64,000 nucleotides of DNA from Thermoplasmata archaeon (GTDB lineage Archaea > Thermoplasmatota > Thermoplasmata > Sysuiplasmatales > Sysuiplasmataceae), in assembly GCA_021806165.1 (NCBI GenBank), contig JAJZXY010000011.1:1-64000 (forward strand). The letters are read 5' to 3'. The notes beneath the pieces were generated by a model. That model had not been told where the DNA came from, ran no database searches, and saw only the letters and a program-made list of their open reading frames with translations. Both the position numbers and the translations under genes were made by a program. Positions 23,936-43,070 of this stretch are shown here, one piece after another (position 1 is the first letter of the stretch; the number at the start of each line of letters is the position of its first letter).

Positions 23936-24175
23936 ATGACAGACCTTAAGCTTTACAAGACAATCGACGCAACCTCCGAAAATTGCGCCGGCCCCATCGG
24001 TGAACTGTCCTCTGCCCTCAATGACGCATACGTGGGCGAAGCGGTGGCCATAATTCTTGGCGATGATGCCACACGCGACGACATACTTGTCTGGGCGAAG
24101 AGGACGGGCAACGAAGTGGTGGAAAACACCTCGGAGGAAGGCAGGCACAGACTCGTTTTGAAAAAGGTGAAATGA
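23936..24175 (+). CDS. TusA-like sulfur carrier protein (atypical CAGP motif)
   Basis: ATG 23936 after GGGGGAAGTG; TIDATSENCAGPIGELSSAL…GDDATRDDILVWAKRTGNEVV. Confidence 0.7.
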   Translation: MTDLKLYKTIDATSENCAGPIGELSSALNDAYVGEAVAIILGDDATRDDILVWAKRTGNEVVENTSEEGRHRLVLKKVK

Positions 24176-24176
24176 A

Positions 24177-25331
24177 ATGAAGAATGTCCTCGTAGCAGGC
24201 GGAGGCCTTGGTGGTACTATTGTTGCGAACAGAATCGCTCAGAAACTTTCGAACGAAATAGAAAACGGAGAGGCGAGCGTTACAGTCTTCGACAAGAGTG
24301 ACATGCACTTCTACCAGCCCGGTTTCCTCCTTGTTTCAATGGGGGCTATGGAACCCCAGGATACACAGATAATGGAGAGGAGCGTCCTCGACAGGCGCGT
24401 GAAATTCCTTTCAGGAGACAGCGGAAGCATCACAAAGATAGATGCCGACAACAGGTCGCTTACCACAGCCGACGGGAAGAGCCATGGCTACGACCAGCTC
24501 GTCCTCTCTACTGGGTCTCATCTTCAGTTCGACGAAATACCAGGTTTTGCTGCCGGCGCCGACACATTCTTCAACCTGGAGAAGGCGAAGGAGATGTGGC
24601 AGAAGGTCCGCTCCTTCGAGGGCGGAAAGATCGTTGTGGACACAGCCATGATGCCGCACAAGTGCCCCGTCGCACCTCTTGAGATAACGCTGATGCTTGA
24701 CGATTATTTCAGGAAGAAGGGGATAAGGGACAAGGTTCAGATTGATTACTGCTATCCAGTGCCAGGCGTCTTCGGCATACCCAATGTCAACAAAATGATG
24801 ACAAAGATATTCGCCGAGCGCGGCATCAACGTCCACAGCCAGTTTGCACTCGCCTCGGTCGACACCTCCGCCAGGAAGATCACCTCGAAGGAGGGGGAGT
24901 CGGTGGACTACGACCTGCTAGTCAGCATCCCTCCCCACAAGGGGGCGCAGGTGATAGGCGATTCTGGCCTCGGCGACAGGCGGAACTGGGTTTCCACGGA
25001 CAAGTTCACACTGCTGGTTAAGGGGCACGATGACATACATGCAATGGGCGACACGACGGACATAGCCATATCGAAGGCAGGCTCGACAGCCGACTACGAG
25101 TCCTATGTTGTCAGCCACAACGTTGCAGCCGAGGTTGCAGGCACGGGCGGCATGAAGACGTACCCGGGCTCTGTATTCTGCTTCATCGCGACAGGGATGG
25201 ACCAGGCGACATACATAAAGTTCGACTACAGCCACCCCCCTGTCCCTCCTACACCGTCGCAGGTCTACTGGTGGAGCAAGCTTGCCTACAACAAGCTCTA
25301 CTGGAGTCTGCACGCCAGGACCATGATCTGA
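24177..25331 (+). CDS. Sulfide:quinone oxidoreductase-like FAD protein
   Basis: 384 aa; KNVLVAGGGLGGTIVANRIA, MMPHKCPVAPLEITLML, DYCYPVPG, FCFIATGMDQATYIKFDY; three Cys in SQR-like contexts. Confidence 0.8.
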   Translation: MKNVLVAGGGLGGTIVANRIAQKLSNEIENGEASVTVFDKSDMHFYQPGFLLVSMGAMEPQDTQIMERSVLDRRVKFLSGDSGSITKIDADNRSLTTADGKSHGYDQLVLSTGSHLQFDEIPGFAAGADTFFNLEKAKEMWQKVRSFEGGKIVVDTAMMPHKCPVAPLEITLMLDDYFRKKGIRDKVQIDYCYPVPGVFGIPNVNKMMTKIFAERGINVHSQFALASVDTSARKITSKEGESVDYDLLVSIPPHKGAQVIGDSGLGDRRNWVSTDKFTLLVKGHDDIHAMGDTTDIAISKAGSTADYESYVVSHNVAAEVAGTGGMKTYPGSVFCFIATGMDQATYIKFDYSHPPVPPTPSQVYWWSKLAYNKLYWSLHARTMI

Positions 25332-25341
25332 GGATGGCCCG

Positions 25342-25725
25342 ATGAAGCTGGCCATCGTTCTCGGCTCCAATCATCTCGACAGGGTGGAGTTCGCCTCCAT
25401 GACAGCATTCCTGGCATCAAGCATGGGGGATGAAGTCCTCCTCTTTGCCACCATGGGTGGCGTCCAGGCGCTGAAGAGGGAGCCGGACACTGTATCGGAG
25501 TCGGATGCATCCAGGAAGATCGCAGACACGGAGAACGGGGGCAAATTTCTTGATTACCTCAGGAAGGCGAAGGGAACGGGGAAGGTGAGCATTACGGCAT
25601 GCAGCATGGCATCCAGGCTGTTCGGCCTGAAGAAGGAGGATTTCTCCGATCTGGTTGACGGCATAGGGGGCCTTACCTCATTCCTGGATATGACCGAAGG
25701 AAGCAGACTTATGAATATATGGTGA
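25342..25725 (+). CDS. DsrE-family (DsrE2-like) protein
   Basis: 127 aa; MKLAIVLGSNHLDRVEFA…EVLLFATMGGVQAL…ITACSMASRLFGL. Confidence 0.72.
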   Translation: MKLAIVLGSNHLDRVEFASMTAFLASSMGDEVLLFATMGGVQALKREPDTVSESDASRKIADTENGGKFLDYLRKAKGTGKVSITACSMASRLFGLKKEDFSDLVDGIGGLTSFLDMTEGSRLMNIW

Positions 25726-26621
25726 TTGACTTGACAAGTGAAAACGCAGACAATGTTAAGGGGCTGGCCCTTAGTGCCGATGATGAGAAGCAGCTGCACG
25801 ATTTCATAGCAAACATACCGCGCTTCAACAGCGTCATGGGTGAGCTCTCAAGGATGATGGACGAGGGGCAGCTCGATGCTCTGTCGCATGCACTTTCGGC
25901 CCTCCGTTTCCTGAAGGAGGGTCTCAACGACGAGGCTGTGGAATCGCTGTCCACGCTTGGCGGCAGGATAGCGGAGGCCGCATCCGCCCTCTCGTCCGGA
26001 GAGGCCAAGAAGGTTCTTGAAAGCGTGGGGACGCAGGGAGGGGAGCTTTCAGCCCTGATTGAGCAGGTGGGCAGGATGCACAGGGACGGCGTGTTCGACT
26101 CGCTTGTGAGCGCATCCTATGCCGTCAAGTTCCTGAAGGACGGCCTGAATGACGAGGCGGTCGAGAACATGGCTTCCAGCATTGGCGGCATGTTGGCGGT
26201 CTGGCGCCAGTACTCATCGCTCGTGTCCAACAGTGAACTGATGTCCGCGCTGACCAAGATTTCGAAGCTGGAGAATGATGGCGGGCTGGATGCGGTCATT
26301 GAGGCAGCGTACGTGATGAAGTTCCTGAGGGATGGAATGAACGACGAGGCGCTCACCAACCTTGCCTCCATATTCTCGCAGCTGCTTACCCAGTGGAATT
26401 CTCTCCACCGCTTCATAGAAATGATGTCCTCCCCAACAGCAGAGAGGGTGCTTAGGATGCTGACAGATGAGAACGTGCAGGAGAGGCTGGAGAATGCACC
26501 TGCCAGGAAGGGCGGCATGTCACTGCTTTCAATCTCGGACCCGGATGTCAAGAAGGGAATGGGCGTTGCGTTCGAAATGCTCAAGATCCTGGGGGAGGAG
26601 TTCAGGAAGGATGACAAGTAG
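25719..26621 (+). CDS. DUF1641-like protein with three internal repeats
   Basis: 300 aa; repeated 'LRFLKEGLNDEAVESL', 'VKFLKDGLNDEAVENM', 'MKFLRDGMNDEALTNL'. Confidence 0.75.
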   Translation: MVIDLTSENADNVKGLALSADDEKQLHDFIANIPRFNSVMGELSRMMDEGQLDALSHALSALRFLKEGLNDEAVESLSTLGGRIAEAASALSSGEAKKVLESVGTQGGELSALIEQVGRMHRDGVFDSLVSASYAVKFLKDGLNDEAVENMASSIGGMLAVWRQYSSLVSNSELMSALTKISKLENDGGLDAVIEAAYVMKFLRDGMNDEALTNLASIFSQLLTQWNSLHRFIEMMSSPTAERVLRMLTDENVQERLENAPARKGGMSLLSISDPDVKKGMGVAFEMLKILGEEFRKDDK

Positions 26622-26645
26622 GCACCGACACTGTCATGGCGGCCC

Positions 26646-26673: not shown

Positions 26674-26680
26674 TATAGTG
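26671..26680 (+). promoter_or_regulatory. TATA box of tusA
   Basis: TTATATAGTG about 27 nt upstream of ATG 26700. Confidence 0.5.
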
Positions 26681-26699
26681 ATAAGGGGATATACCGGAC

Positions 26700-26936
26700 A
26701 TGGACCAGGAGCAGCAGAATTTGCGTGATATGAGGGGCATGCAGTGCCCCATGCCAATAATGGAGACGGCCAAGGCGATCAAGGAAGTGCAGGTGAACGA
26801 GGTTCTGACGGTTCTAGCCGACGACCCCGCTGCAAAATCCGACTTTGAGGCATGGTCGAGAAGGACGGGCCATACGCTTGTGGCTGTCAATGACAAGGGG
26901 AGCTACAACGAATTCGTAATAAGGAAGACGCACTGA
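26700..26936 (+). CDS. tusA: TusA-family sulfurtransferase
   Basis: 78 aa; DMRGMQCPMPIMETAKAIKEVQVNEVLTVLADDPAAKSDFEAWSRRTGH, canonical CPxP. Confidence 0.88.
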   Translation: MDQEQQNLRDMRGMQCPMPIMETAKAIKEVQVNEVLTVLADDPAAKSDFEAWSRRTGHTLVAVNDKGSYNEFVIRKTH

Positions 26937-26946: not shown

Positions 26947-27213
26947 TCAGATGCTTATCACCTTTTTTGCCCCGGCGAGCGCGGCTGCGAATTCGGATGC
27001 ATCCATCGCCTTCACGCCAGCCGGCACGCTGAATCCGATGCGCAGGACTGTTGTATCCAGCCCCCCGGCGGCTTCAGCCAGCCATCCTTCAGCAGCCATG
27101 TAGGCTGCCGACCCTGTGAGTATTATGCCTGCATCCAGTCCGCGCGAAGCAGCCCCGATTGCACCCCACCAGGATGAATCCCTCCCCAGGAGGTGCGTTA
27201 TGATGAAAATCAC
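26947..27213 (-). CDS. DsrH/TusB-like small protein of the DsrE superfamily
   Basis: 88 aa; last gene of long minus-strand operon after two DsrE/F-like genes. Confidence 0.5.
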   Translation of the reverse strand: MIFIITHLLGRDSSWWGAIGAASRGLDAGIILTGSAAYMAAEGWLAEAAGGLDTTVLRIGFSVPAGVKAMDASEFAAALAGAKKVISI

Positions 27214-27224: not shown

Positions 27225-27554
27225 TCAGAAGACCACCACCTTTGATTCCAGCAGCATTTGCGCAAATGCGCCGTCATCTATTATTTCCACGCCCGCGGTG
27301 CCTGCGCCCGGGATCAGGCGCCTGCACGAACTCTCCAGTGCAAAGACCCTGAGGCCGTCAATGCCGGACAGCCTTCCAAGCTTCCTGAGCCCGAACGCAT
27401 AACCCTCCCCTTCAAGGAGGGAGAGGACGCCGTCATCGAGCAGTACGAACGATACCTCGTGGCCCAGGCCGCTGAACATCATCGCGCTCCTCTGCGCCTC
27501 CTGGAAATAGGCACCCTGGAGCTGTGCATGCGTCAGCACTATCACGACCTTCAT
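27225..27554 (-). CDS. DsrE/DsrF-like protein
   Basis: MKVVIVLTHAQLQGAYFQEAQRSAMMFSGLGHEVSFVLLDDGV; ATG 27554 overlaps the upstream gene end. Confidence 0.65.
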   Translation of the reverse strand: MKVVIVLTHAQLQGAYFQEAQRSAMMFSGLGHEVSFVLLDDGVLSLLEGEGYAFGLRKLGRLSGIDGLRVFALESSCRRLIPGAGTAGVEIIDDGAFAQMLLESKVVVF

Positions 27555-27558
27555 CCGC

Positions 27559-27900
27559 TCACCCCTCCGATGTGAAGTTAAGCAGTATGTCGCACCCCTC
27601 CACAATCTCGGTGAAATCCTCCAGTGTCCCGAGCCCCGACCCTTTGATTACTCTGTCAACACCCCTGTACGTCGCGCAGGTAGTGCAGGCAGTCATCTCC
27701 AGCCCCTCCGACTGCATCTCGCCGACAACGGTCTCCACCTTGTCCGAAAGGAGGTGAGCGGATGCATTGTAGACGCCGTCCCCGAGAAGGAAGATGCGCA
27801 CGCGGTGGCCCGCGGACTTCAGCGCCCTTGCTATCTCGAGCACCTGGGCGCTGTTCTCATGCTGCACCGGTGAGGTGAACAGCAGGATGGCGACAATCAT
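27559..27900 (-). CDS. DsrE-like protein
   Basis: MIVAILLFTSPVQHENSAQVLEIARALKSAGHRVRIFLLGDGVYNA…MTACTTCATYRGV. Confidence 0.72.
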   Translation of the reverse strand: MIVAILLFTSPVQHENSAQVLEIARALKSAGHRVRIFLLGDGVYNASAHLLSDKVETVVGEMQSEGLEMTACTTCATYRGVDRVIKGSGLGTLEDFTEIVEGCDILLNFTSEG

Positions 27901-28094
27901 TTCAGCACCTCCCCCCACCCCTGCTGGGTGCACACGTAGCGAACGCCGTCAACCTCGACCAGGCCGCCGAGGTCGACAGCACCCTCGAAGAACAGTTTGT
28001 TGAGGAGGGCCATGACATGCTGCGGAACAGTCTCCATGTCGCACTCGGGAAGGCCGAGAGGGTTTCCAGTTCTTGCTATAACCCTCACCTGCAT
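27897..28094 (-). CDS. Uncharacterised 65-aa protein in sHdr operon
   Basis: MQVRVIARTGNPLGLPECDMETVPQHVMALLNKLFFEGAVDLGGLVEVDGVRYVCTQQGWGEVLK; 4-nt overlap with the downstream gene and abuts mrp. Confidence 0.65.
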   Translation of the reverse strand: MQVRVIARTGNPLGLPECDMETVPQHVMALLNKLFFEGAVDLGGLVEVDGVRYVCTQQGWGEVLK

Positions 28095-29195
28095 TCAGGC
28101 ACCACCGTAAATCGCCTTCTTCCTTCCACCCGTGGAAAGCATCCTGAACCTGACGCTCCTGGCGACATCAAACAGTTCCTGCCTCCTGTAGAGCTCAATC
28201 TCCCCCCTGTCCGCCAGAGCGGATATTGCAGGGTCAAGGGGCATTGAGCCCAGGTAGCCGATTCCCAGCCTCCTGCTTATCTCCTCCGCCCCGAGCCTGC
28301 CGAACACATTGATCCTCTGCCCTCCGGGAAGCTGCAGGTATGACATATTCTCCACAACACCCAGCACGGGCGCCTTCAGCTCGTTTGCCATCTGGACAGC
28401 CCTTGCCACGACTGTGTTAGCAACCAGCTGCGGGCTCGTGACAAACAGGACGCCGTCCGGCCTCAGCGACTGGAATACCGTGAGCGGTGCGTCGGATGTG
28501 CCCGGGGGGAGATCGACAAGAAGGTAGTGCAGATCCCCCCAGTCCGTTTCCGAAAAGAGACCCCTTATGGCGCTGTTGATCAGTGGACCCCTCCAGACCA
28601 GCGGTGTTTCGAACCTGTCCATTATCAGGTCGATTGACATTATTTTCACACCCATGGCGGATGTGAGCGGCTCCATCATCTTGTCCTCCCTAAGCCTGGG
28701 CATTCCAGACAGACCGAACATCCTCGAGATGCTTGGTCCCGTGATGTCCGCGTCAAGTATGCCGACCCTGTAGCCCGAGAGTGCGAGGTGGGTTGCAGTC
28801 GCGGCGGTAATGAAACTTTTTCCCACGCCCCCCTTGCCGGAGGCAACCGCTATCACCGACCGAATCCCCCTCCTGCCCAGAGCATCTATGCCTGTGGCCT
28901 TCTCCTCCCCCACAACATTGAGCTCCACCCTCTCCTTTACGGCAGTCACGACCTTTCCAGCGCTGAATCCGACCTCGGCCCTGAGCCCTGCCGAGCGCGC
29001 GGCTGCCTCTATGTCCGAGCGCAGGACGTTCAGCAGCGCGTAGTCCAGCGAGTTGACTGTAACCTGCACGCTGACCGAATCACCCTTCACGCTCAGCTCC
29101 CTGACCATTCCCAGCTCAGTGATTGGTATGTTGACCTCCGGATGAGGCACCTTTGAGAGGACCTCCATCATGCCATCAGCGCCACCGGCAGGCAT
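28095..29195 (-). CDS. Mrp/NBP35-type P-loop ATPase (Fe-S carrier) with N-terminal DUF59-like domain
   Basis: 366 aa; VIAVASGKGGVGKSFITAATATHLALSGYRVGILDADITGPS, LLVDLPPGTSD. Confidence 0.92.
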   Translation of the reverse strand: MPAGGADGMMEVLSKVPHPEVNIPITELGMVRELSVKGDSVSVQVTVNSLDYALLNVLRSDIEAAARSAGLRAEVGFSAGKVVTAVKERVELNVVGEEKATGIDALGRRGIRSVIAVASGKGGVGKSFITAATATHLALSGYRVGILDADITGPSISRMFGLSGMPRLREDKMMEPLTSAMGVKIMSIDLIMDRFETPLVWRGPLINSAIRGLFSETDWGDLHYLLVDLPPGTSDAPLTVFQSLRPDGVLFVTSPQLVANTVVARAVQMANELKAPVLGVVENMSYLQLPGGQRINVFGRLGAEEISRRLGIGYLGSMPLDPAISALADRGEIELYRRQELFDVARSVRFRMLSTGGRKKAIYGGA

Positions 29196-29198: not shown

Positions 29199-30317
29199 TC
29201 ACCCCGCAGGCACTACGATGGGGTGCTCCAGGGCCTCCGCCACGGCCGTGGCTATGTCTCGCGCAGATGCACCTATCATTGTGACGCCGTCGCCCCTCAG
29301 GAGGGCGGCGGCCGCGTTCTCCACGTCCCTCTTCGCCGCCCTGACTCCCTTCAGCGCATCCTCGAGCCTTGAGATGCGCCATTCAACAGGGAGCGAGAAG
29401 AAGTCGCCCGATATTGTTATGTCAGATATTACCCCGTTATCCACAAGCACAGTAACCCTCACAAGCTTCTGGCCCTTCCAGTCATGCCTGCAGAGGAACA
29501 TCCCTTCCCTTATCTTGACAATCCTGCGCTCCACGTCGCCGATTGCCCTGTGCATCTCCCTCCTCTCGAAAATCCAGTCATCCCTTCCCCGCTCCTCAAC
29601 CAGCTCATCCACCCTCTCCCGCTCTGCGGAGGAGAGCGATGAGCGCTCCATGCCTCCGTAATCGTATGAGAATTCGGCAGCCAGCGCCTCCGCCACCCTC
29701 GCCCTGTCAGCCTCTGCGCCAGTCTGCTCCCTGATAGAGGTGAGGTAACCTGCCATGCTCCCCGCAACCTTGTCCCTGAATTTCTCGTCGGGGACGCGCA
29801 GGATGGAGGACATCATATCCACGTTGAGGTCCATCAGCACATCACCCGTCAGGACCCTTGCACCCTCTATGTCCACCGCACCGTTGGCGCTTATCTTCCT
29901 GCCTCCGACGGCAAGATCGTTGAGGCCCTGCCTCTCTGCCCTGACGCCCAGCCTGAGGAGTGCGCGCCTCACAGGCTCTAGCATCCTGACGTAGTAGTCC
30001 TGAATGCTCCCCCTGGTAATGTCCGAGTCGAGCGGTGTTATGTGGAAATAGTCCTCCTCCCAGGGGCCGTCCGCAATCGCCCCGCCGCCGATAACCCTCC
30101 TGACGACCTGAATCCCCCTCCTCCTGCAGTATTCCAGTGATATTTCCCTCTCCACCTCCTGGTGGACTCCCGCATTTGCAAACGGCGCCGAAGGGTGGCA
30201 AATGACAAGCGTATCGCCCCTCTCCCCCCGGTTTACAGACTCAGCCAGCGCTACGAACGCATTTGTCATCACCAGGCCGTCGACCCCGCCCAGTTCTATC
30301 ACGGACAGGTGGGGCAA
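29199..30317 (-). CDS. Lipoate-protein ligase-like protein with C-terminal accessory domain (sLpl(AB)-like)
   Basis: 372 aa; 'VVRRVIGGGAIADGPWEEDYFHI', 'LNDLAVGGRKISANGAVDIEGARVLTGDVLMDLN' (LplA) plus C-terminal 'VTVLVDNGVISDITISGDFFSLPVEWRISRLEDAL' (LplB/LplA C-domain-like). Confidence 0.82.
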   Translation of the reverse strand: MPHLSVIELGGVDGLVMTNAFVALAESVNRGERGDTLVICHPSAPFANAGVHQEVEREISLEYCRRRGIQVVRRVIGGGAIADGPWEEDYFHITPLDSDITRGSIQDYYVRMLEPVRRALLRLGVRAERQGLNDLAVGGRKISANGAVDIEGARVLTGDVLMDLNVDMMSSILRVPDEKFRDKVAGSMAGYLTSIREQTGAEADRARVAEALAAEFSYDYGGMERSSLSSAERERVDELVEERGRDDWIFERREMHRAIGDVERRIVKIREGMFLCRHDWKGQKLVRVTVLVDNGVISDITISGDFFSLPVEWRISRLEDALKGVRAAKRDVENAAAALLRGDGVTMIGASARDIATAVAEALEHPIVVPAG

Positions 30318-30325: not shown

Positions 30326-30706
30326 CTAGAAGCTCACTACAGAATCAGCATCCAGCGCAAGGTCAGCCAGTGTTGAGGTGCCCACAACCTTCACCCCTTC
30401 TATCACATCATCCGGCTCTATGTTGCACAAATCCCTCAGGCTCTCCTCGCACACGTAGAACTTGACGCCGTTCTCAAGAGCCATGTCGATGAACTGCTTC
30501 AGGCTCCCCCCCTTCTTCAGCGCAACCTTCTCCGCAGCCCCCTTCCGGAGCAGCTCGGCCGCGTGCATGAGGAAGTACATCGATGTGTCTATCTCCATTG
30601 CAGCAGACAGGGCTGCCGTGTATATGGGTGCATATGTCTTGTCTGGATTCTCAGGCCCGTTCGTCATGACGTAAAGAAGCTTCTTTGTCTCCTCAGCCAT
30701 ATTCAT
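30326..30706 (-). CDS. DsrE-family (DsrE3-like) protein
   Basis: KLLYVMTNGPENPDKTYAPIYTAALSAAMEIDTSMYFLMHAAELLRKG…VKFYVCEESLRDLCNI. Confidence 0.72.
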   Translation of the reverse strand: MNMAEETKKLLYVMTNGPENPDKTYAPIYTAALSAAMEIDTSMYFLMHAAELLRKGAAEKVALKKGGSLKQFIDMALENGVKFYVCEESLRDLCNIEPDDVIEGVKVVGTSTLADLALDADSVVSF

Positions 30707-31155
30707 CACTTCTGGCATCTGATGCACTTGACATTGTCCCTTGCAATGATTTCATTGAATTTCGCCTGCGCCTGCTCCCCGCGCAGGAGTCCTGAGAGCT
30801 CCGACTGATCCGTTATCTTGATCTGTGCTATCCACCCTTCCCCGTAGGGGTCGTCATTGATGAGCACCGGCCTGATTTCGAGCTGCTCGTTTGCCTTCAT
30901 GACAGTCCCCCCCATCGGGAAATGCACAGGCCCGGCCCACTTGCCGCTTTCAATGGTAGCGAGTGGTTTTCCGCGCTCCCTCGTTGTGCCCACAGCCTTG
31001 ATCCTGACATGAAGAATCCTGCCTGCCCTCGTCTGGGCAGGGTCTGTCAGTCCAAGCGTAGCGTTCTCCCCCTCCAGCCTAATCCATGTCATCTGGCTCC
31101 CCTCAAGATAGTAGTATAGATCGTCCGGTATCTCGCATCCGTTCAGTATTGCCAT
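30706..31155 (-). CDS. lbpA: Lipoate-binding protein LbpA (GcvH-like) of sHdr system
   Basis: 149 aa; GcvH-like fold with 'LATIESGKWAGPVHFPMGGTVMKANEQLE' lipoyl-lysine motif; flanked by hdrB2 and lipoate ligase; C-terminal CIRC. Confidence 0.85.
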   Translation of the reverse strand: MAILNGCEIPDDLYYYLEGSQMTWIRLEGENATLGLTDPAQTRAGRILHVRIKAVGTTRERGKPLATIESGKWAGPVHFPMGGTVMKANEQLEIRPVLINDDPYGEGWIAQIKITDQSELSGLLRGEQAQAKFNEIIARDNVKCIRCQK

Positions 31156-31165: not shown

Positions 31166-32080
31166 TCAGTACCCCATTCTTTTCAGAACCCCGTTAGCAT
31201 CGGAAATGTTCTCGTGCAGCGCCATCTCCCTCCTGGAATGGCCGAATGAGAGGCCCAGCAGCTGGGTGAAATAGACCACGGGCCTTATTATCTCTGCCCC
31301 GTACTGCTCTGTGATCTTCGATATATTCATTTCAATGTTGACCTGCCCCAGCGGGCACATGGTTGCCACCAGGTCTGCCCCGGCCCTTGCAGCTTCATTG
31401 AGTATTGCTGCACTGAAGCCGACTGAGACCTCCCTGTCAGCTATTGTGTGGCCACCCCCGCAGCATATTGTCTTGACCGGATATTCCACCGTTGTCGCTC
31501 CGGCCGCCTGCAGCAGGTCATCCATGAAATGCGGGTGCTCGGGGTTGTCCTTCCCCTCCTTCATCCCGGCACCGGTGTATGTCTTCGGCCTTGTGTAAAG
31601 GCAGCCGTAATAGCAAGCAACCTTCAGGCCGCTCAAAGGTCTGCTCACCCTTGCCTTCACCGCATCCAGTCCGACCGAGTGCCTTATCACCTCCAGCACG
31701 TGCTTAACCTCCACGTCCCCGCTGTACTGGGGCACGCCAGCCTCCTGAAGGTAGCCACTCAGCCTCTGCCTGGACGAGGCGTCCTCGCTGATGGACTTGT
31801 TCGCCCTTGCAAGCGCATAAACACAGCCGTTGCAGGGTGCTATGACCGTCCCCGCGCCCATGCTCTCGGCAAGCGCCAGGTTCCTTGTTGGCAGAAACAC
31901 TGACAGGTCGTAGCTTATATTCTTGACCTCGGTGGCGCCGCAGCAGTTGTAATCCTTTATCCTGTTCATTGGTATGTCCAGATCCCTGAATACAACTTCT
32001 GTCGACTTCTGGTACGCCTTGCCCAGCCCGTCCATGGAACAGCCCGGATAGTAAGCCATCTTCTCATTTTGCCGAGGCAT
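31166..32080 (-). CDS. hdrB2: sHdrB2, heterodisulfide reductase subunit B-like (CCG domains)
   Basis: AYYPGCSMDGLGKAYQKS…DYNCCGATE…CYYGCLYTRP…KTICCGGGHTIAD. Confidence 0.85.
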   Translation of the reverse strand: MPRQNEKMAYYPGCSMDGLGKAYQKSTEVVFRDLDIPMNRIKDYNCCGATEVKNISYDLSVFLPTRNLALAESMGAGTVIAPCNGCVYALARANKSISEDASSRQRLSGYLQEAGVPQYSGDVEVKHVLEVIRHSVGLDAVKARVSRPLSGLKVACYYGCLYTRPKTYTGAGMKEGKDNPEHPHFMDDLLQAAGATTVEYPVKTICCGGGHTIADREVSVGFSAAILNEAARAGADLVATMCPLGQVNIEMNISKITEQYGAEIIRPVVYFTQLLGLSFGHSRREMALHENISDANGVLKRMGY

Positions 32081-32789
32081 AGCCGTCCCTCTCAAGTATA
32101 TCCTCTGCCACCTTTTTCATTTTCTTCCAACCCCTGGTTCTCCTCCTTATTGGACCGGTCCTTATGTTGCCGTTCCTGATGATCTTGACAGCCATCCGCG
32201 CCATGAATCCGCGCGTGAAATCCTCGGGTTTTTCAGCCCTGACATACTTGAGCGTCAGCCCGAGCTCGTCAAGCACGCCTGTCGCCATGATGTTGTCAAG
32301 GTATGTCCTGTCCCACCTGGAACCGGGGGTATCCTCAGTCACTCCCCTTCTCCTGAGTACCTCGTCTATGTTGTGGACAACCTCCTCCACCTTGACACCC
32401 TTCGGGCACCGCTCAACGCACTTGTTGCAGCTAATACATCTCCATATGACATCCCCGTACTTCTTCAGCTCATCCACATTGCCAATCTGCGCGAGATAGA
32501 TGAAATACCTGGGGTTGAACTCCCTGAGCCCATAGTCCGTGTGCAGGCAGCAGCCGGATGTGCATGTGCCGCACTGCCAGCAGTTTGTTACAGTCCTGCC
32601 GCCCGGAAGGGATTTTACCTCCTCAACGAAATCCTCATGGTAGTCACTTAGAAGTCTTTCCCTGATGAAGGTGTTCCACCTGCCCGATACGTCGACGCCG
32701 TCCACGACGGCTTTCTCCTTCTCGAGCAGGTCCTCCTTCTCAATGAGATTCTTCTCATGTATGGGCAATGATCTCCCTCCTGATCCCAA
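32064..32789 (-). CDS. hdrC2: sHdrC2, [4Fe-4S] HdrC-like subunit
   Basis: TNCWQCGTCTSGCC…WRCISCNKCVERCPKGVKVEEVV. Confidence 0.83.
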   Translation of the reverse strand: MGSGGRSLPIHEKNLIEKEDLLEKEKAVVDGVDVSGRWNTFIRERLLSDYHEDFVEEVKSLPGGRTVTNCWQCGTCTSGCCLHTDYGLREFNPRYFIYLAQIGNVDELKKYGDVIWRCISCNKCVERCPKGVKVEEVVHNIDEVLRRRGVTEDTPGSRWDRTYLDNIMATGVLDELGLTLKYVRAEKPEDFTRGFMARMAVKIIRNGNIRTGPIRRRTRGWKKMKKVAEDILERDGYASAK

Positions 32790-33486
32790 GTATCATGGCC
32801 GCGAGGACGGTGCTGTTAGGGAAGAGCGCCTCCATCCCCCCCGAATTCATTGACGAGTCCTTTGCACCCATTATGCCTGATGCATATGCAAGCGAACATG
32901 CGATGTCAAGCGGGTAGAACGAGTCGGAACCGTATCCTGCGGCGTCAAGGGCGCTCTTCGCCTCGCGCAGCAGCGCCTGCCTGGAGTCCCAGGTGCCATC
33001 AACATTTCCCCTCACAGCGGCCGAGAGAGCCCCCTTGCCAGTCCCGGGGTTGAAGACCCATCTCGTGCACAGTCCGTATATGTCCGGGTTGAGAAAATGG
33101 ATGGCCTCGAACGCCACATCCTCCAGCACCGCGGCGGGAGCGCCGGACAGGGAGGTGAAGCGCCTTATGGCGATCGCCGGCTCCATCCTGGAAACCCTGA
33201 GTGATTTTATCGCAGCAGCAATGTCGCCGCCGCCGTTTGCCGCCATGACGGCGGCGTGATGCCTCCTCGATGAAAGAAAGATGCCGAAGAATTCCCTGAA
33301 ATCGCCCTCACCTAGCTCCTCCCTGTCCTTGACAAGGGAGAGCAGCTTCGCTGACTTGGAACCAAGGGCCGCTTCAAATGCAGCCCTTTCCGCTTCCGTG
33401 AGGGAGCCTACGGTAGCCTCGGCCATTGAAACAAGCGCCCCCTTCTCAAGCTCTGGCCTGTACCTTGATACTTCTCTTCCTGACAT
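32755..33486 (-). CDS. sHdr-associated hypothetical protein (Hyp)
   Basis: 243 aa; located between hdrA and hdrC2 as in the sHdr C1-B1-A-hyp-C2-B2 order. Confidence 0.7.
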   Translation of the reverse strand: MSGREVSRYRPELEKGALVSMAEATVGSLTEAERAAFEAALGSKSAKLLSLVKDREELGEGDFREFFGIFLSSRRHHAAVMAANGGGDIAAAIKSLRVSRMEPAIAIRRFTSLSGAPAAVLEDVAFEAIHFLNPDIYGLCTRWVFNPGTGKGALSAAVRGNVDGTWDSRQALLREAKSALDAAGYGSDSFYPLDIACSLAYASGIMGAKDSSMNSGGMEALFPNSTVLAAMILGIRREIIAHT

Positions 33487-34513
33487 AGTTGAGTGCCTTG
33501 ATGGCCGCGGCAGAACCCTCTGTTATGGAATCGGGTATGGCCTTTGGCCCGGTTGCCGTGCCGCATACAAAGACGCCCGGGACGGCGGTGCTCACGGGCA
33601 TCGAGTCAGACTCAAGGGGCTTGACAAAACCATGCTCCTCCAGCTCAAGCCCGAGCATGGCAGCAGTTTCGCGCGTCCCTTCGCTTGCCTCCATTCCGGT
33701 TGCAAGGACAACCATGTCCAGCGGGACCTCGCTCGGCCTCTGCAGTATGGTGTCCTCAGCCATGGCAATTAGCCTGCCGTCCTCTCCACGGTTGATTGAA
33801 CCTATTCTCCCTCTGATGTACTTGACGCCGAATTCCTCCATCGACTTCCAGTAGAGCTTGTCCTCCCAGAAGCCGTATGTTCTGATGTCCATGTAGTAGA
33901 CGTAGGTGTCTATTGCCGGGTTTATGCGCCTGACCTCCATCGCCTGTTTGATGGACACAGCACATCCGAGCCTGCAGCAGTAGAACTTGCCGACCTGCCT
34001 GTCCCTCGAGCCGACGCAGAGGAGCCAGGCCACCCTCCTGGGCACCTGTCCGTTTGACGGCCTGACGATATTGCCGTCGCTCAGCATCTTCTCAAAATCC
34101 TTGAAATCAATAACATCGGGGTAGACGCCATATGCATACTCGTACTTCTTGTGCGGATCCCAGTGGGCAAATCCTGTCGCGACCACCACAGCATCCACCT
34201 TCTCCTCCACCTTCTTTCCTCCTCCGGAGATTGTAACTGTGAAGCCGTTCCTTCCACTGTTCACCGACTCGACCTTTGCGCCCGTCATGCATCTGGCCCC
34301 CGACTGCTGCACGCTGTCGATCAGAGGGTCAAGCACCTCCTCCACCGGTTTCAGGTCGGGGGCAAGGAGACTGTAGTGCAGCCTCTTGGGAGTCCCGCCC
34401 AGGAATCCCTCCTGTTCGACCAGTATGGCCTCTCCGCCCGCGTCCGTTATGTCCTGTGCCGCGCTCAGTCCCGCAGGTCCGCCGCCTATTATCAGTATCT
34501 TTGGGGAAGCCAA
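33446..34513 (-). CDS. hdrA: sHdrA, FAD-containing heterodisulfide reductase subunit A-like
   Basis: 355 aa; KILIIGGGPAGLSAAQDITDAGGEAILVEQEGFLGGTPKRL, FYCCRLGCAVSIKQAM. Confidence 0.85.
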   Translation of the reverse strand: MASPKILIIGGGPAGLSAAQDITDAGGEAILVEQEGFLGGTPKRLHYSLLAPDLKPVEEVLDPLIDSVQQSGARCMTGAKVESVNSGRNGFTVTISGGGKKVEEKVDAVVVATGFAHWDPHKKYEYAYGVYPDVIDFKDFEKMLSDGNIVRPSNGQVPRRVAWLLCVGSRDRQVGKFYCCRLGCAVSIKQAMEVRRINPAIDTYVYYMDIRTYGFWEDKLYWKSMEEFGVKYIRGRIGSINRGEDGRLIAMAEDTILQRPSEVPLDMVVLATGMEASEGTRETAAMLGLELEEHGFVKPLESDSMPVSTAVPGVFVCGTATGPKAIPDSITEGSAAAIKALNYVRKRSIKVQARA

Positions 34514-34526: not shown

Positions 34527-35780
34527 TCAGTTGTCCATTATCACATGGCCCTTGTTAACTGCAAAGTACTTCTCCATCTCGTCATGGGGCTTGTAGAGCA
34601 TGTCAGGCTCCCTCCCCCTCTGCAGCTCCTCTATGTAGCTGTTGAAATCCTTCTTGTAATAGGCAACGTCAAAACCCATCTTCTCAAGCAGACTGTCAGT
34701 CGGGGAGCTGTGCCAGTGTATCTGCACTATCTTGTACGGGTGCGCACCCGCAGCCAGGGCTGCAAGCTGCACGTCCGCGAGCACAGGAAGCATGTAATCC
34801 ATGCCATGGCTCTTCCCAATCCACTGGCTCTTGTCGAGCGTTGTGACGCACCCCGTGTCGGTGGTTATGGCAACATCTGCGTGCGCCTCCTCGACCATGG
34901 GCTTGATCTTCCTGAGTGTTGCAAATGACCTGCTGAACTCCCTCTCGGTCAGTATGTGCCTGAAGCCGAAGCCGCAGCAGTCGTACCATGTGCTGTAGTC
35001 GGCCACCTTTGCCCCGAGTGCCTGGATGAGTGCGGTGGGCGGAGCTGGGCGCTGGCCCCCGTTTGTGTCCTTCTCGTATATGGCGTCCTCAGGCACCATC
35101 TTGTAGTAATGGCAGGGCTCATGCACTGCGGCAGTGATGCCGTCGAGCTTCATCTTCACCATGCCGGCCATATCGTTCCTTTTCACATGCACCCATTCGC
35201 TGTAATGCACAATCTCTTCGGGGATGGCCAGTTCCTTCCCCATATGGTGCATTATGTCCCTGACCTTCTCCCTGACCTCCCTGTTCTCTATGAGAAGTTT
35301 CCTCATCTCCTTGTAGTCGCCGTAGCTCGTACCGCAGTGGATCAGCGGGAAGGTACCTGTCTCATATGCCCTGTGCCAGTTCCTGACAGCGACCGCCGCC
35401 AGAGCCACCGGGTTGGATGTTCCTGACCCGTGGTAGTTCCAGGCGGTGCAGGAAGTCTGATGCGGCTCGTTGAGATAATGGGTCTTGAACTGGTTCATGA
35501 ACCAGAGAAGCGATGCGGGGTAGCCCGGTATGTTGCCGCACTGTCCGCATGACTTGTGATGCCAGAGGTAGTCAGTGGGTATTCTCTTCTTCCAGCCGAA
35601 GAGCGTCTCGACCTCAACAGGCCTGTTCTTCTTCTCTATCGGAATCACCACAAGCTCGCCCTTGTCGTGCAGTCTCCACATCTCCTCCCTGACGTCATGG
35701 ACCTTCTTGTCCGAGAAGGTCCTTGCCTGCGCCCTCTGATTTATTACATCCCTGATCTGGTCAGCATTCAGCATATTCAA
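34527..35780 (-). CDS. hdrB1: sHdrB1, heterodisulfide reductase subunit B-like
   Basis: 417 aa; HKSCGQCGNIPGYPASLLWFM, HEPCHYYKM, YDCCGFGFRHIL. Confidence 0.85.
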   Translation of the reverse strand: MNMLNADQIRDVINQRAQARTFSDKKVHDVREEMWRLHDKGELVVIPIEKKNRPVEVETLFGWKKRIPTDYLWHHKSCGQCGNIPGYPASLLWFMNQFKTHYLNEPHQTSCTAWNYHGSGTSNPVALAAVAVRNWHRAYETGTFPLIHCGTSYGDYKEMRKLLIENREVREKVRDIMHHMGKELAIPEEIVHYSEWVHVKRNDMAGMVKMKLDGITAAVHEPCHYYKMVPEDAIYEKDTNGGQRPAPPTALIQALGAKVADYSTWYDCCGFGFRHILTEREFSRSFATLRKIKPMVEEAHADVAITTDTGCVTTLDKSQWIGKSHGMDYMLPVLADVQLAALAAGAHPYKIVQIHWHSSPTDSLLEKMGFDVAYYKKDFNSYIEELQRGREPDMLYKPHDEMEKYFAVNKGHVIMDN

Positions 35781-36556
35781 GCCTCACCCACACCGTATTT
35801 CGCCTTCATCTCCTCGAATTCATCCTTCCACTCATCGACAATATCCTCGATCATTTCCACAAGGTCCGGGTCGATGGATTTAAGCATGTCAACGACCCCT
35901 GACTCAGTGTATATCTGGAAGAGTTCCAGCGAGGTCTGCATTGACACCTCCCACGATGAATCTGTAACCTGCAGCACGTCTATCGGTATGGCCTTCCTCA
36001 GCGTTTTGATGTCTGTCTGTTTGGCAACTGCAAAAGGTCCCCAGTCTGCAAAAAAGTCAGGCTGGATCATGTCAGGCGAAACCTGCGTCCCATTTGTCAT
36101 GACCGCAAGAAGTATCCTGCTGTATGGCTTGAGGACCTCCTTCGCGCTGTCGAGCCCGTTCCTGACCGCAAGCTCCCTCATCACGCTGATTATGCCAGCA
36201 ATATCATTCCCGAACCTGCACCTCATGTTGCAGGTGTAGCACTGGCAGCACGCCCATATCTTCTCCTGCATCGCGTCAAGCAGGACAAGCGGGTCGTCCT
36301 GGTACGCTATCTGGAGCATCTCCCTGGGGCTGAAGTTGTAGAAACGGGCCGCAGGGCAGCCCGTTGTGCACTCGCCGCAGTTGATGCATCCGAGCACATA
36401 CTCCTTGTACCTGAAGTCAGACTTAAATTCACTGAAAATCTTTGCAGCGAGCTCCTCGGTCTTTTCATCCCTCGGTCTTGCTCCGCCGATTACCATCGAT
36501 GGTTCTGTGCCCTTGGGCCCTCTTCTGGGCAGATTTTGTAGCACTGTCATAGCCAC
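35777..36556 (-). CDS. hdrC1: sHdrC1, [4Fe-4S] HdrC-like subunit
   Basis: 259 aa; LGCINCGECTTGCPAARFYNFSPREML, WACCQCYTCNMRCRFGNDIAGI; first gene of operon. Confidence 0.83.
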   Translation of the reverse strand: MAMTVLQNLPRRGPKGTEPSMVIGGARPRDEKTEELAAKIFSEFKSDFRYKEYVLGCINCGECTTGCPAARFYNFSPREMLQIAYQDDPLVLLDAMQEKIWACCQCYTCNMRCRFGNDIAGIISVMRELAVRNGLDSAKEVLKPYSRILLAVMTNGTQVSPDMIQPDFFADWGPFAVAKQTDIKTLRKAIPIDVLQVTDSSWEVSMQTSLELFQIYTESGVVDMLKSIDPDLVEMIEDIVDEWKDEFEEMKAKYGVGEA

Positions 36557-36680: not shown

Positions 36681-36713
36681 AGCATGCCGGGACCAGTTCA
36701 GGCGAGGCATGCT
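36681..36713 (-). other. Hairpin AGCATGCC-N17-GGCATGCT at 3' end of tnpB-like gene
   Basis: Perfect 8-bp arms 36681-36688 / 36706-36713; overlaps the tnpB stop codon (36712-36714). Confidence 0.5.
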
Positions 36714-38840: not shown

Positions 38841-38856
38841 TTTGGAAATAATAATG
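38841..38856 (+). repeat. 16-bp direct repeat copy 2 (TTTGGAAATAATAATG)
   Basis: Identical to 36651-36666; overlaps the start of the Apr membrane-subunit gene. Confidence 0.6.
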
Positions 38857-39606
38857 TGGTCAGTTAATCCGTTCACGAACCTGACTGTATTTCTCTCGCC
38901 GCTCGTGATGCAGATTTACATAGTCCTGATGATCCTTGCAGTGGCTATCGGGACAATCTATGACCTGCTGCATGGCAGCAAGACCAAGTTCTTCACGAGA
39001 CAACGCAGGAAATCCAGGGCTTATGCAAAACGCGAAATCAGCGGCGGGGAGGCTGCTGGGATTGCGGCAAAGACGCTGGTGACCAATGTTGCCACATCCG
39101 GGGAGTTCCACAGCAGGGAGAGACGCATTTCCCATCTGCTGATGCTCTACGGCTTCGTCATATACCTGCTGACGACCATAGCCATGATATTCCTCTATGT
39201 CAGGGGGAGCACACCTCTCGCCGTGCCTGTCCTCTGGAACTTGGGTGCGCTCATGCTCCTTGCGGGAGGCTACTGGTTCTTCTTCTTCCTGAGGGTCAAT
39301 GTTTCGCACGACGGGCATTCGAGGTTCAGTCTCGTAAGGGCGGACCTTTTTGTCTTCTCCCTCCTGGCGAGCGTCACATTTGCACTGATTATGGAGGCTG
39401 TGGAGACCGCCCAGAGCACCGCCGCCACGGCTGTCCTCTTCTCCTTCTACATATTCTTCACAACCATCCTGTTCGTTTCGGTCCCGTGGTCCAAGTTCTC
39501 CCACATGTTTTACAAACCGGGTGTCGCGATACAGAAGAAGATTGAGGAGGCAAGCGGCTCATCAGACCTCCCGTCTCCTGCAGACGGCCCCCATGGCGGT
39601 GCGTGA
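38842..39606 (+). CDS. Polytopic membrane protein, HdrE/NarI/DsrM-like; candidate membrane anchor for AprBA
   Basis: 254 aa, ~5 TM; 'PWSKFSHMFYKPG' motif typical of the b-type-cytochrome gamma-subunit family; overlaps aprB by 4 nt. Confidence 0.7.
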   Translation: MEIIMWSVNPFTNLTVFLSPLVMQIYIVLMILAVAIGTIYDLLHGSKTKFFTRQRRKSRAYAKREISGGEAAGIAAKTLVTNVATSGEFHSRERRISHLLMLYGFVIYLLTTIAMIFLYVRGSTPLAVPVLWNLGALMLLAGGYWFFFFLRVNVSHDGHSRFSLVRADLFVFSLLASVTFALIMEAVETAQSTAATAVLFSFYIFFTTILFVSVPWSKFSHMFYKPGVAIQKKIEEASGSSDLPSPADGPHGGA

Positions 39607-40061
39607 TAAAGATGCCTACATTCGTCTACATGACAAAATGCGATGGCTGCGGCAAGTGCGTCGACATATGCCCCTCAGACATAATGCACATAGACCCCGT
39701 ATACAGGAGGGCGCTGAATATAGAGCCCAACTTCTGCTGGGAGTGCTATTCGTGCGTCAAGGAATGCCCGCAGAATGCCATTGATGTGCGCGGATATGCC
39801 GATTTTGCTCCACTGGGGCACAGCGTAAGGGTGCTCAGGGAGCCTGAGAAGGGGATGATCTCCTGGAAGATAAGATACAGGGACGGCAGACTGAAGGAGT
39901 TCAGATTCCCCATCAGGACAACAAGCTGGGGAAGCATCAAGCCGCCCTCACAGTATGAGCTGCCCGACACGGACAGCATTTCATCACAGCTGCTTGCGCA
40001 TGAACCGGATGCACTCAAGATTGACAAGCTGCCCGACCTTCCCAAAAGGAAGAAGGCCTGA
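39603..40061 (+). CDS. aprB: Adenylylsulfate (APS) reductase beta subunit
   Basis: 152 aa; MPTFVYMTKCDGCGKCVDICPSDIMHIDP…NFCWECYSCVKECPQNAIDVRGYADFAPLG. Confidence 0.93.
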   Translation: MIKMPTFVYMTKCDGCGKCVDICPSDIMHIDPVYRRALNIEPNFCWECYSCVKECPQNAIDVRGYADFAPLGHSVRVLREPEKGMISWKIRYRDGRLKEFRFPIRTTSWGSIKPPSQYELPDTDSISSQLLAHEPDALKIDKLPDLPKRKKA

Positions 40062-40073: not shown

Positions 40074-41909
40074 TTGCCAGGAAGAAAAACCAGGTTCATC
40101 GATTCAGACATACTCGTGATAGGAGGGGGCTTCGGCGGCTGCGGTGCCGCATACGAATCCAGGTACTGGGGACGGAACCTGAAGATTGTGGTGGTGGAGA
40201 AGGCAAACATAGAGCGCAGCGGGGCTGTCGCACACGGCCTTTCCGCCATAAACTGCTACATGGGAATGCAGTGGGGGGAGAACCAGCCCGAGGATTTCGT
40301 CCGGTACGCAAGGGGCGACCTGCTCGGCCTAGTGAGGGAAGACCTGCTGTTCGACATTGCAAGGCATGTCGACTCAACTGTCCACAAGTTCGAGGAATGG
40401 GGACTGCCCATCATGAAGGATCCCAAGACAGGTCACTACCAGAGGGAGGGGCGGTGGCAGATAATGATCCATGGCGAAAGCTACAAACCAATAGTTGCCG
40501 AGGCCGCAAGGAAGTCCGCCGACGAGGTGCTCAACAGGGTGATGGTCACACACCTGCTGATGGACAGGACAAAACCCAACAGGGTTGCAGGCGCCGTGGG
40601 CTTCGATGTCAGGGACGGGACATTCTATGTGTTCCGCTCGAAGGCCGTCATTGTAACTGCCGGCGGGGCATCACACATATTCAGGCCCAGGTCGATCGGC
40701 GAGGGTGCGGGAAGAACATGGTACTCGCCCTGGAGCACAGCCTCAGCCTACACGCTCCTCATACAGGCGGGAGCAAAGATGATACAGATGGAGAACAGGA
40801 TTGTTCTCACCAGGTTCAAGGACGGCTACGGCCCGGTGGGTGCCTGGTTCCTTCTGCTGAAGACATATGCCACCAACGCCTACGGGGAGAAGTACGAGGC
40901 GGCACGGTTTGACGAGATAAAGGGCCTTGTGGGCAAGTATGCCGAAACCAAGCCGATGCCCACCTGCCTCAGAAACCACTCCATGCTTCAGGAGATGAAG
41001 GCGGGCAAGGGCCCGATATACATGCATACTCAGGAGTCCCTGGACACGAAGGAGAAGGAGGAGATTGGCTGGGAGGATTTCCTGGACATGACAATAGACC
41101 AGGCAGTGGTCTGGGCATCCCAGAATATTGATCCGAAGGAAAAGCCATCCGAGCTGATAGCCTCGGAGCCGTATGTCATGGGCTCTCACGCCACATGCTC
41201 CGGAGCATGGGCAAGCGGCCCCGAGGATTTCGCACCATCGGATTACCAGTGGGGGTACAACAGGATGACCTCAGTTGAGGGTCTATTCGGAGCAGGCGAC
41301 ACGATAGGGGGTTCCGCGCACAAGTTCAGCTCAGGCTCATTCACCGAGGGGAGGATTGCAGGCAAGTCGGCCGTCCGCTATGTCACAGACCTTGCAGGGA
41401 ACAACCCACAGGCTGACGAGGGGCAGATTGAACAGTTCAAGGAGCTCATATTCCGCCCGCTCGAGAATTACGAGGTGGGAAGGAATGAGATTGTTGCGGG
41501 GAGCGTCGCGCCTGGATACATATACCCTATACACGGCCTGCAGAGGCTCGAGAAGATCATGGATGAGTATGCGGGAGGAGTCAGCACATTCTATGTAACC
41601 AATGAGCCGATGCTCAACCGCGGTCTGGAGCTCATAGGAATGCTCAAGGAGGATCTTGCGCACATAGGTGCAGAGGACCTTCACCAGCTGCAGCGGGCAT
41701 GGGAGCTTAACCACAGGGTGTGGACCGCGGAGGCTGTCATAAGGCACACGCTGTTCAGGCAGGAGACCAGGTGGCCCGGCTACTACTACCGCGGCGACCA
41801 CCCCAAGCTGGATGATGACAACTGGCATGTTTTTGCCTGCTCACAGTATGACCCGAAGAGCGGTGAGTGGACCATGTCCAAGATGCCCGTGCACCATATA
41901 ATCGACTGA
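40074..41909 (+). CDS. aprA: Adenylylsulfate (APS) reductase alpha subunit
   Basis: 611 aa; FIDSDILVIGGGFGGCGAAYESRYW, ERSGAVAHGLSAINCYMG, FRPRSIGEGAGRTWYSPWSTASAY. Confidence 0.95.
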   Translation: MPGRKTRFIDSDILVIGGGFGGCGAAYESRYWGRNLKIVVVEKANIERSGAVAHGLSAINCYMGMQWGENQPEDFVRYARGDLLGLVREDLLFDIARHVDSTVHKFEEWGLPIMKDPKTGHYQREGRWQIMIHGESYKPIVAEAARKSADEVLNRVMVTHLLMDRTKPNRVAGAVGFDVRDGTFYVFRSKAVIVTAGGASHIFRPRSIGEGAGRTWYSPWSTASAYTLLIQAGAKMIQMENRIVLTRFKDGYGPVGAWFLLLKTYATNAYGEKYEAARFDEIKGLVGKYAETKPMPTCLRNHSMLQEMKAGKGPIYMHTQESLDTKEKEEIGWEDFLDMTIDQAVVWASQNIDPKEKPSELIASEPYVMGSHATCSGAWASGPEDFAPSDYQWGYNRMTSVEGLFGAGDTIGGSAHKFSSGSFTEGRIAGKSAVRYVTDLAGNNPQADEGQIEQFKELIFRPLENYEVGRNEIVAGSVAPGYIYPIHGLQRLEKIMDEYAGGVSTFYVTNEPMLNRGLELIGMLKEDLAHIGAEDLHQLQRAWELNHRVWTAEAVIRHTLFRQETRWPGYYYRGDHPKLDDDNWHVFACSQYDPKSGEWTMSKMPVHHIID

Positions 41910-41918
41910 GGTCCCGCA

Positions 41919-43070
41919 ATGATTCCGGAGCCTTATGGGGGAAGACTGGTCAGCCTCCTACGTCCCGCCGGTGCAGGCGAAGACTTCTCGTCGATGCAGC
42001 GCATAGTGCTCAACGAGGAGGAGAGCTATGATGCCGAAAAGCTGGGGATAGGCGCCTACAGCCCGCTTGAAGGGTTCACATCGAGCGGCGAGTTCGAGAG
42101 TATAACGTCCAGGACCATGCTAGAAAACGGACTGCCGTGGAGCATGCCTGTCGTGCTTGCACCTTCAGGCAGTGAGAATGAATCGGCCGTCGGAAGCATC
42201 CGCGCCGGGGACGAAATACTTCTTGTGGATTTCACAGGCAAACCGCTCGCCACGATGAGCGTCTCTGAAAAGTATGCGCTCAGGAAGGATGTTTTTGCGC
42301 GCAGCGTCTATGGCACAACGGACAGCACCCACCCCAATGTTGAGGAGATAGGGCAGATGGGTCCCACGGCGCTGTCGGGCGGAATAAGACTGCTCAGGCG
42401 CCTGGAATCACCCTTCAGCCGTTACGAGCTGACGCCGGCAGAGAGCAGGGAGCAATTCAGCAGGAAGGGGTGGAAGAGCGTTGCCGCCTACCAGGCACGC
42501 AACCCTCCGCACCTCGCCCACGAGTACATACAGCGGATAACGCTTGAAAGGGATGATGTCGACGGCATCTTCATTCAGCCCGTGGTCGGCAAGCTAAAAC
42601 GTGGCGACTACAGGCCGGAAGTCATAATGGAGGCATACGACGTTTTTGTATCAAAATACTACAGGGAGGAATGCGCCCTTCTCGGCTCCCTCTCCATATC
42701 TATGCGCTACGCAGGTCCGAAGGCTGTGCTCTTCTACGCCATAGTGAGAAGGAACTATGGATGCTCTCACTACATTGTCGGGCGTGACCAGGCGGGGGTG
42801 GGGAGTTACTACGACCCATATGCGGGCCACAGGATATTCGACCAATTCGATGTGGGGGTCAGGCCAATACTCTACAAGGAGACATTCTACTGCTCCATAT
42901 GCAGGGGAATGACTTCCGTCAAGGTCTGCCCCCATCCCGAGTCTGCGAGGGTCAACACCAGCCAGACACGCATCCGCCGCATACTCTCCGAGGGGGGCGA
43001 GATTCCGCATGAAATCATCAGGCCCGAGGTTGCAGCCATCCTCTCCAGGGGAGACGTAACAATATCCTGA
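41919..43070 (+). CDS. sat: Sulfate adenylyltransferase (ATP sulfurylase)
   Basis: 383 aa; AAYQARNPPHLAHEYIQRITLE, HYIVGRDQAGVGSYYDPYAGHRIF. Confidence 0.94.
   Translation: MIPEPYGGRLVSLLRPAGAGEDFSSMQRIVLNEEESYDAEKLGIGAYSPLEGFTSSGEFESITSRTMLENGLPWSMPVVLAPSGSENESAVGSIRAGDEILLVDFTGKPLATMSVSEKYALRKDVFARSVYGTTDSTHPNVEEIGQMGPTALSGGIRLLRRLESPFSRYELTPAESREQFSRKGWKSVAAYQARNPPHLAHEYIQRITLERDDVDGIFIQPVVGKLKRGDYRPEVIMEAYDVFVSKYYREECALLGSLSISMRYAGPKAVLFYAIVRRNYGCSHYIVGRDQAGVGSYYDPYAGHRIFDQFDVGVRPILYKETFYCSICRGMTSVKVCPHPESARVNTSQTRIRRILSEGGEIPHEIIRPEVAAILSRGDVTIS

Follow-up and report, generated by a model that had tools for sequence, protein, structure and literature searches.

A gene island predicted to oxidize sulfane sulfur to sulfate in an archaeon of the family Sysuiplasmataceae

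Can an archaeon of the class Thermoplasmata convert sulfane sulfur to sulfate with the products of one compact locus? This question is raised by a 64,000-nucleotide stretch of contig JAJZXY010000011.1 (hereafter the window), in which genes for an sHdr complex lie beside genes for adenosine 5′-phosphosulfate (APS) reductase with its membrane partner (aprMBA) and for ATP sulfurylase (sat). The initial annotation had read the block as a contiguous route from sulfide or sulfane sulfur to sulfate, and the type of its sHdrA, a loop-less AprB accompanied by aprM and the failure to find a siroheme sulfite reductase lend sequence support to that view. We concluded that the island very probably encodes a cytoplasmic pathway by which a facultatively aerobic member of the Sysuiplasmataceae oxidizes sulfane sulfur to sulfate.

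The window covers 64,000 of the 66,845 bases of its contig, which belongs to a metagenome-assembled genome (MAG) of 1.88 Mb with 95.9% completeness and 1.06% contamination. The host is an uncultured, acid-mine-type archaeon of the Sysuiplasmataceae (Thermoplasmata), whose genus is sister to Candidatus (Ca.) Sysuiplasma. Because archaeal SSU (16S) rRNA was not found in the MAG, the placement rests on group codes and on the relative Ca. Sysuiplasma superficiale, both of which agree with the Thermoplasmata-like chromosome suggested at the outset. The codes used below are f1 for the host family, g1 for the host genus, g2 for Sysuiplasma and f9, f17, f26 and f31 for other Thermoplasmata families. 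Relatives from the collection scan were the best 80 of at least 592, and DBS2-5.bin48 (G056) is a public relative within g1. The content of the island was defined by gene calls and profile hidden Markov model searches (Pfam, NCBIfam, TIGRFAM, PRK).

The sHdr module and its lipoate machinery

The minus-strand part of the island, running from 36.6 down to 26.9 kb, carries the sHdr genes in the canonical order C1-B1-A-H-C2-B2, together with genes for LbpA, DsrE3, a lipoate ligase, an Mrp/ApbC-type protein and DsrE/F/H-like proteins. Its sHdr and lipoate genes, with dsrE3, are the following:

35777..36556, minus strand: sHdrC1, HdrC family, 4Fe-4S
34527..35780, minus strand: sHdrB1, CCG domain
33446..34513, minus strand: sHdrA, short, without the inserted ferredoxin domain; best PDB match 6tjr
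32755..33486, minus strand: sHdrH, hypothetical protein of sHdr operons; no family match, position between A and C2 kept in relatives
32064..32789, minus strand: sHdrC2, 4Fe-4S dicluster, HdrC/QmoC family
31166..32095, minus strand: sHdrB2, two CCG domains (PF02754), HdrB family
30706..31155, minus strand: LbpA-type lipoate-binding protein, GcvH-like (PF01597, E 3e-34), lipoyl lysine aligned with that of GcvH
30326..30727, minus strand: DsrE3-type sulfurtransferase (PF02635, E 1.5e-17), adjoining sHdr as in sHdr operons
29199..30317, minus strand: fused LplA and LplB lipoate:protein ligase, sLpl(AB)-like (PF21948, E 4e-33; LplB domain NF053749)

Thus, all six sHdr-type subunits, an LbpA with the conserved lipoyl lysine and a lipoate ligase, the latter in the form of an LplA-LplB fusion, were recovered as initially annotated. 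The distinction from methanogen-type Hdr, which had been proposed as a check, was clearest in sHdrA: the window protein matched 6tjr over its full length (E 1.3e-79), whereas its matches to methanogen HdrA were only partial (about 1e-59). We take 6tjr to be the sHdrA of Hyphomicrobium denitrificans, the title of the entry being generic. Lipoate assembly genes were also sought elsewhere in the genome, and LipA was found in all 11 genomes tested, including that of the host, while LipS2 was not found in family f1 by a search with one bacterial query. Since LipS2 was not detected, the fused ligase and the LipA encoded outside the island probably supply the lipoyl group of LbpA. In the f9 loci L030-L036, a second, divergent pair of LbpA/GcvH-like and lipoate ligase-like genes, with about 29-42% identity to those of the window, lies near the sHdr operon.

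The module resembles the sHdr-LbpA system of H. denitrificans in gene set and order, in LbpA, DsrE3 and the in-cluster lipoate ligase, and in its 6tjr-like sHdrA. It differs from that system in its archaeal host, in the presence of LipA where LipS2 was not found, and in the fate of sulfite, which H. denitrificans excretes (PMC12423496) and which AprMBA-Sat, encoded in the island itself, is predicted to process.

The aprMBA-sat module and the direction of the pathway

The second half of the island comprises four genes on the plus strand:

38842..39606, plus strand: AprM, membrane partner of APS reductase, five predicted transmembrane segments; homologs directly 5′ of betaproteobacterial aprB, weak QmoC match
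39603..40061, plus strand: AprB, lineage I type, without docking loop (TIGR02060, 189 bits, over cut-off)
40074..41909, plus strand: AprA (TIGR02061, 988 bits, over cut-off)
41919..43070, plus strand: Sat, ATP sulfurylase (PRK04149, 409 bits, over cut-off; PF01747 and PF14306)

AprB, AprA and Sat, each scoring over its curated cut-off, had been named before, and indeed every gene listed by the initial annotation was found at or near the position given; aprM, directly 5′ of aprB, was missing from that list. No relative of AprM was found in PDB. The active-site residues N74, E141, W234, R265 and H398 of AprA (A. fulgidus numbering) are conserved. In sulfate reducers and lineage II oxidizers, a K-G-x-D/E-K/R loop that goes with Qmo follows Cys-B13 of AprB, while lineage I oxidizers have a loop-less AprB and aprM (PMC2211403). 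The window AprB reads KCDGCGKC at this site, without the loop, and QmoAB was not found within the island, to which the search for Qmo was confined. In agreement with this, AprA grouped with oxidative lineage I, outside the clade of reducers and lineage II with their looped AprB (100/99), so the proposed comparison of oxidative and reductive AprA clades came out on the oxidative side.

The likeness to the sat-aprMBA loci of lineage I (Allochromatium vinosum, Thiobacillus) extends to the aprM-aprB-aprA order, the linked sat, the loop-less AprB and an AprM with five transmembrane segments, the number reported for A. vinosum (PMC3779200, PMC2211403). Unlike these loci, the island is archaeal and lies beside sHdr, and its sat is placed after aprA, not before aprM. 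Sulfate reducers and lineage II (Sat-AprBA-Qmo) employ the same enzymes AprA, AprB and Sat, but their AprB is looped and AprM is absent; the looped sequences in Pseudomonadota, likewise without AprM, showed 47-51% identity to the window. Considering both halves of the island, and leaving lipoate assembly aside, the tested defining features of the known systems are present in their sequences.

In the proposed pathway, sulfide would be oxidized at the quinone pool by a sulfide:quinone oxidoreductase (SQR), and the resulting sulfane sulfur would be carried to the sHdr complex by TusA, DsrE and DsrE3. sHdr and lipoylated LbpA would then oxidize it to sulfite, which AprBA may convert with AMP to APS, the electrons reaching quinone and a haem-copper oxidase through AprM, and Sat would finally form ATP and sulfate from APS and pyrophosphate. 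Candidates for the entry steps and further small carriers are encoded as follows:

23867..24175, plus strand: TusA-like carrier 1 (PF01206, E 8e-14), motif CAGPI in place of CPxP
24177..25331, plus strand: SQR-like flavoprotein, type III (NF049943), both redox cysteines aligned with those of human SQOR (PDB 6oi5)
25342..25725, plus strand: DsrE-family protein (PF13686/PF02635)
25719..26621, plus strand: DUF1641 protein (PF07849, E 1e-6)
26700..26936, plus strand: TusA carrier 2, CPMP motif (PF01206, E 1e-23)
26947..27213, minus strand: tentative DsrH/TusB-like small protein; no family match, position after DsrE/DsrF-like open reading frames (ORFs), g1 homolog at the equivalent place
27225..27605, minus strand: tentative DsrF/TusC-like protein; no family match, syntenic in g1, g2 and FK5
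27559..27933, minus strand: DsrE/TusD-like protein (PF02635, E 6e-14; TIGR03012, 33.7 bits, under cut-off)
28095..29195, minus strand: Mrp/ApbC-type Fe-S carrier ATPase (NF041136, 262 bits; PF10609, E 1e-78)
44957..45433, minus strand: DsrE2-like sulfur carrier downstream of sat (PF13686, E 3e-26)

The two TusA-like carriers, the SQR-like protein and the DsrE paralogs (PF02635/PF13686) of the initial annotation were all present, and the neighbourhood it had outlined should be widened to the Mrp/ApbC-type gene, DUF1641, the DsrF- and DsrH-like ORFs and the downstream DsrE2. An Mrp/ApbC-type gene also lies close to sHdr or apr in the relatives examined.

The direction of the pathway was further judged from the rest of the host genome. 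The NIR_SIR domain was not found in this 96%-complete genome by a search that matched in 11 of 14 controls; therefore neither a dissimilatory (DsrAB) nor an assimilatory siroheme sulfite reductase was found there, which answers the earlier proposal to look for DsrAB outside the island. COX1 of a haem-copper oxidase is encoded in the genome. Several points weigh against an oxidative pathway: Apr and Sat can in principle also run the other way, the first TusA-like carrier lacks the CPxP motif, the SQR-like protein scored 343.6 bits, under the 525-bit cut-off of its best family NF049943, about 4% of the MAG is absent by the completeness estimate, and the search for sulfur oxygenase reductase (SOR) matched no positive control and hence supports no claim of its absence. 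Nevertheless, the oxidative reading stands, because AprB is loop-less and accompanied by AprM, NIR_SIR was not found, and COX1 and LipA are present.

The reversibility of the two enzymes would also allow Sat and AprBA to reduce sulfate to sulfite in respiration or assimilation, with sHdr working in another direction, and family f26 of the same class does have a looped, reducer-like AprB/AprA beside HdrA-like genes (locus L021, G095:C4; AprA Archaeoglobus-like). However, the failure to find a siroheme sulfite reductase in the 96%-complete genome, the loop-less AprB with AprM, the position of AprA outside the reducer/lineage II clade and the COX1 oxidase all speak against such a use in the host, so we rejected it as very improbable. 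Sulfur disproportionation, the topic of PMC12998232, was considered in place of aerobic oxidation. Disproportionators are generally known to have Sat, Apr, TusA and DsrE proteins as well, but since a sulfite reductase was not found in the host genome and COX1 is present, this alternative is very improbable.

Relationship of aprMBA to the proteobacterial genes

The two halves of the island differ in their closest relatives. The window proteins showed 78-84% (AprA), 73-81% (AprB) and 51-60% (AprM, best full match; up to 64% in partial matches) identity to those of Betaproteobacteria, versus 73-74%, 69-73% and 33-38% to those of the sister genus Sysuiplasma. For HdrB1 and Sat, the identities to Sysuiplasma were 80-82% and 57-59%, and those to bacteria 54% (a Woeseiaceae) and 39%, respectively. 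When the AprA trees were rooted with reducers and lineage II, the loop-less sequences formed a clade of the Thermoplasmata lineages f17/f31, Maxine3, f9 and g2 with FK5, plus a clade of g1 and Proteobacteria (100/100) with g1 as sister; the Proteobacteria alone were supported by 76/87 or 93/93, depending on the rows. An AprA fragment in f9 (G1028:C254:6634-7347), 76% identical to that of the window versus about 63-70% for other f9 copies, is possibly a contamination or a further transfer.

Approximately unbiased (AU) tests rejected a clade of g1 and g2 for AprA (p 4e-5 to 1e-4), AprM (p 4e-4) and AprB (p 0.005), and also the archaea as a single clade apart from bacteria (p 0.005); these p-values are somewhat optimistic because the groups were partly picked after the first tree had been viewed. 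In contrast, g1 grouped with g2/FK5 in the trees of sHdr proteins and Sat. Since vertical inheritance of aprMBA was rejected and sHdr and Sat group with their archaeal relatives, transfer of aprMBA between archaea and Proteobacteria is well supported by the sequences.

The direction of this transfer is less well supported than the transfer itself. The most economical reading is from archaea to Proteobacteria, because one event suffices, whereas the opposite direction needs an unsampled stem donor. In the sampling used, which left out Thermoproteota and most other bacterial phyla, only Thermoplasmata branched outside the AprM-type proteobacterial clade. The proteobacterial lineage I Apr with AprM may have been transferred once, from the Thermoplasmata lineage that gave rise to the host genus, a proposal we put forward tentatively, at somewhat under an even chance. 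If true, archaeal sulfur oxidizers of the sHdr type would be where loop-less AprBA and AprM originated.

The converse, that g1 acquired aprMBA from a proteobacterium in place of its native aprMBA 5′ of the native sat, is a serious but doubtful possibility, and is equally compatible with an oxidative function. It would account for an AprMBA that groups with bacteria beside a Sat and sHdr that group with archaeal relatives, and AprA alone allowed both g1 beside Thiobacillus/Hydrogenophilaceae (p 0.28) and a clade of bacteria and g1 as sister to the remaining archaea (p 0.15). However, concatenated AprMBA gave a bacterial clade excluding g1 (100/99) and rejected the position beside Thiobacillus/Hydrogenophilaceae (p 0.004), which discards a simple import from a Thiobacillus-like donor; an import would then require a donor among unsampled bacteria of the stem as well as a further exchange. 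Unlike lineage I of Proteobacteria, the window has an AprMBA that branches as sister to the sampled proteobacterial ones as a whole and a Sat that belongs to a distinct archaeal clade.

Conservation of the island and its neighbourhood

That AprMBA resembles Betaproteobacteria more than Sysuiplasma could also be expected if a bacterial sulfur-oxidation fragment had been misassembled or misbinned into an archaeal genome. Against such a chimera, the order sHdr-TnpB-aprMBA-sat recurs in other g1 MAGs (G020, G040 and the public G056), the sHdr and Sat of the same block are archaeal, the GC content at third codon positions is uniform over the island and its flanks, and the flanks include archaeal-type KorAB. 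As the core is syntenic in independent MAGs of both genera, a chimera, which the initial annotation had named as a possible refutation, was rejected as extremely unlikely.

Synteny of the sHdr and aprMBA-sat core extended to g2 and to the MAGs FK5.bin12 and YP4.bin50. The TusA-SQR-DsrE-DUF1641 block at the 5′ side was seen in g1, while f9 has only a distant counterpart of SQR (46-47%); because the block did not appear in the g2 loci examined, we regard sHdr plus aprMBA-sat as the conserved core. Accordingly, the window shares this core with Sysuiplasma of the same family (L087), and differs from the Sysuiplasma loci examined in having the 5′ block, TnpB and an aprMBA that is sister to the proteobacterial genes. 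A survey of 200 genomes of the class found sHdrB1 orthologs (67-91% identity) only in 7 of f1 and 10 of f9, and AprA in 25, including all 17 with sHdrB1 (nominal hypergeometric value 6e-19, with relatedness ignored); all eight examined genomes of the host order carried AprA. In f9 genomes (e.g., L037, L034), sHdr, LbpA and AprBA were present and AprM was undetected, and in G160 two AprA copies flank sHdr.

Two genes not named in the initial annotation lie between the sHdr and apr halves of the island:

36712-37944, minus strand: TnpB-family protein without TnpA
38053-38796: calcineurin-like phosphoesterase

TnpB occupies the identical site in four of four g1 genomes (67-71% identity) and is absent from the g2 loci examined. 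Because its third RuvC acidic residue is seemingly replaced (S/P/A), it is possibly a domesticated RNA-guided protein that has lost nuclease activity. Two further genes adjoin the island: a SelW/Rdx-family small protein with a CxxC motif (21746-21997, minus strand) and a bacterial-type class II lysyl-tRNA synthetase (46648-48177, plus strand), the latter also found in g2 (66%). Farther upstream, a 1329-aa protein with a thermopsin domain (2076-6065, plus strand) is possibly a large secreted acid protease.

Oxidation of reduced inorganic sulfur compounds (RISC) in Sysuiplasmatales was reportedly described by Yuan and colleagues in 2021, in a study cited in PMC12220078, so the caution about novelty expressed at the outset was justified. 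The relevant passages of the papers on Lutacidiplasmatales and on Tengchong Thermoplasmata do not describe the island, and, judged by title and abstract, the searched literature held nothing relevant on aprM in Thermoplasmata. As far as that literature shows, the complete sHdr and aprMBA-sat island with LipA for LipS2, its spread to f9 and the sister position of its aprMBA to proteobacterial lineage I are new. Both an acid-mine archaeal family and the Thermoplasmata family f9 have this predicted compact, contiguous route from sulfane sulfur to sulfate as a conserved core trait, and members of the two may thus contribute to acid generation in mine wastes. The island also offers a concrete, testable answer to where sulfur-oxidizing Proteobacteria may have obtained their AprM-type oxidative APS reductase.
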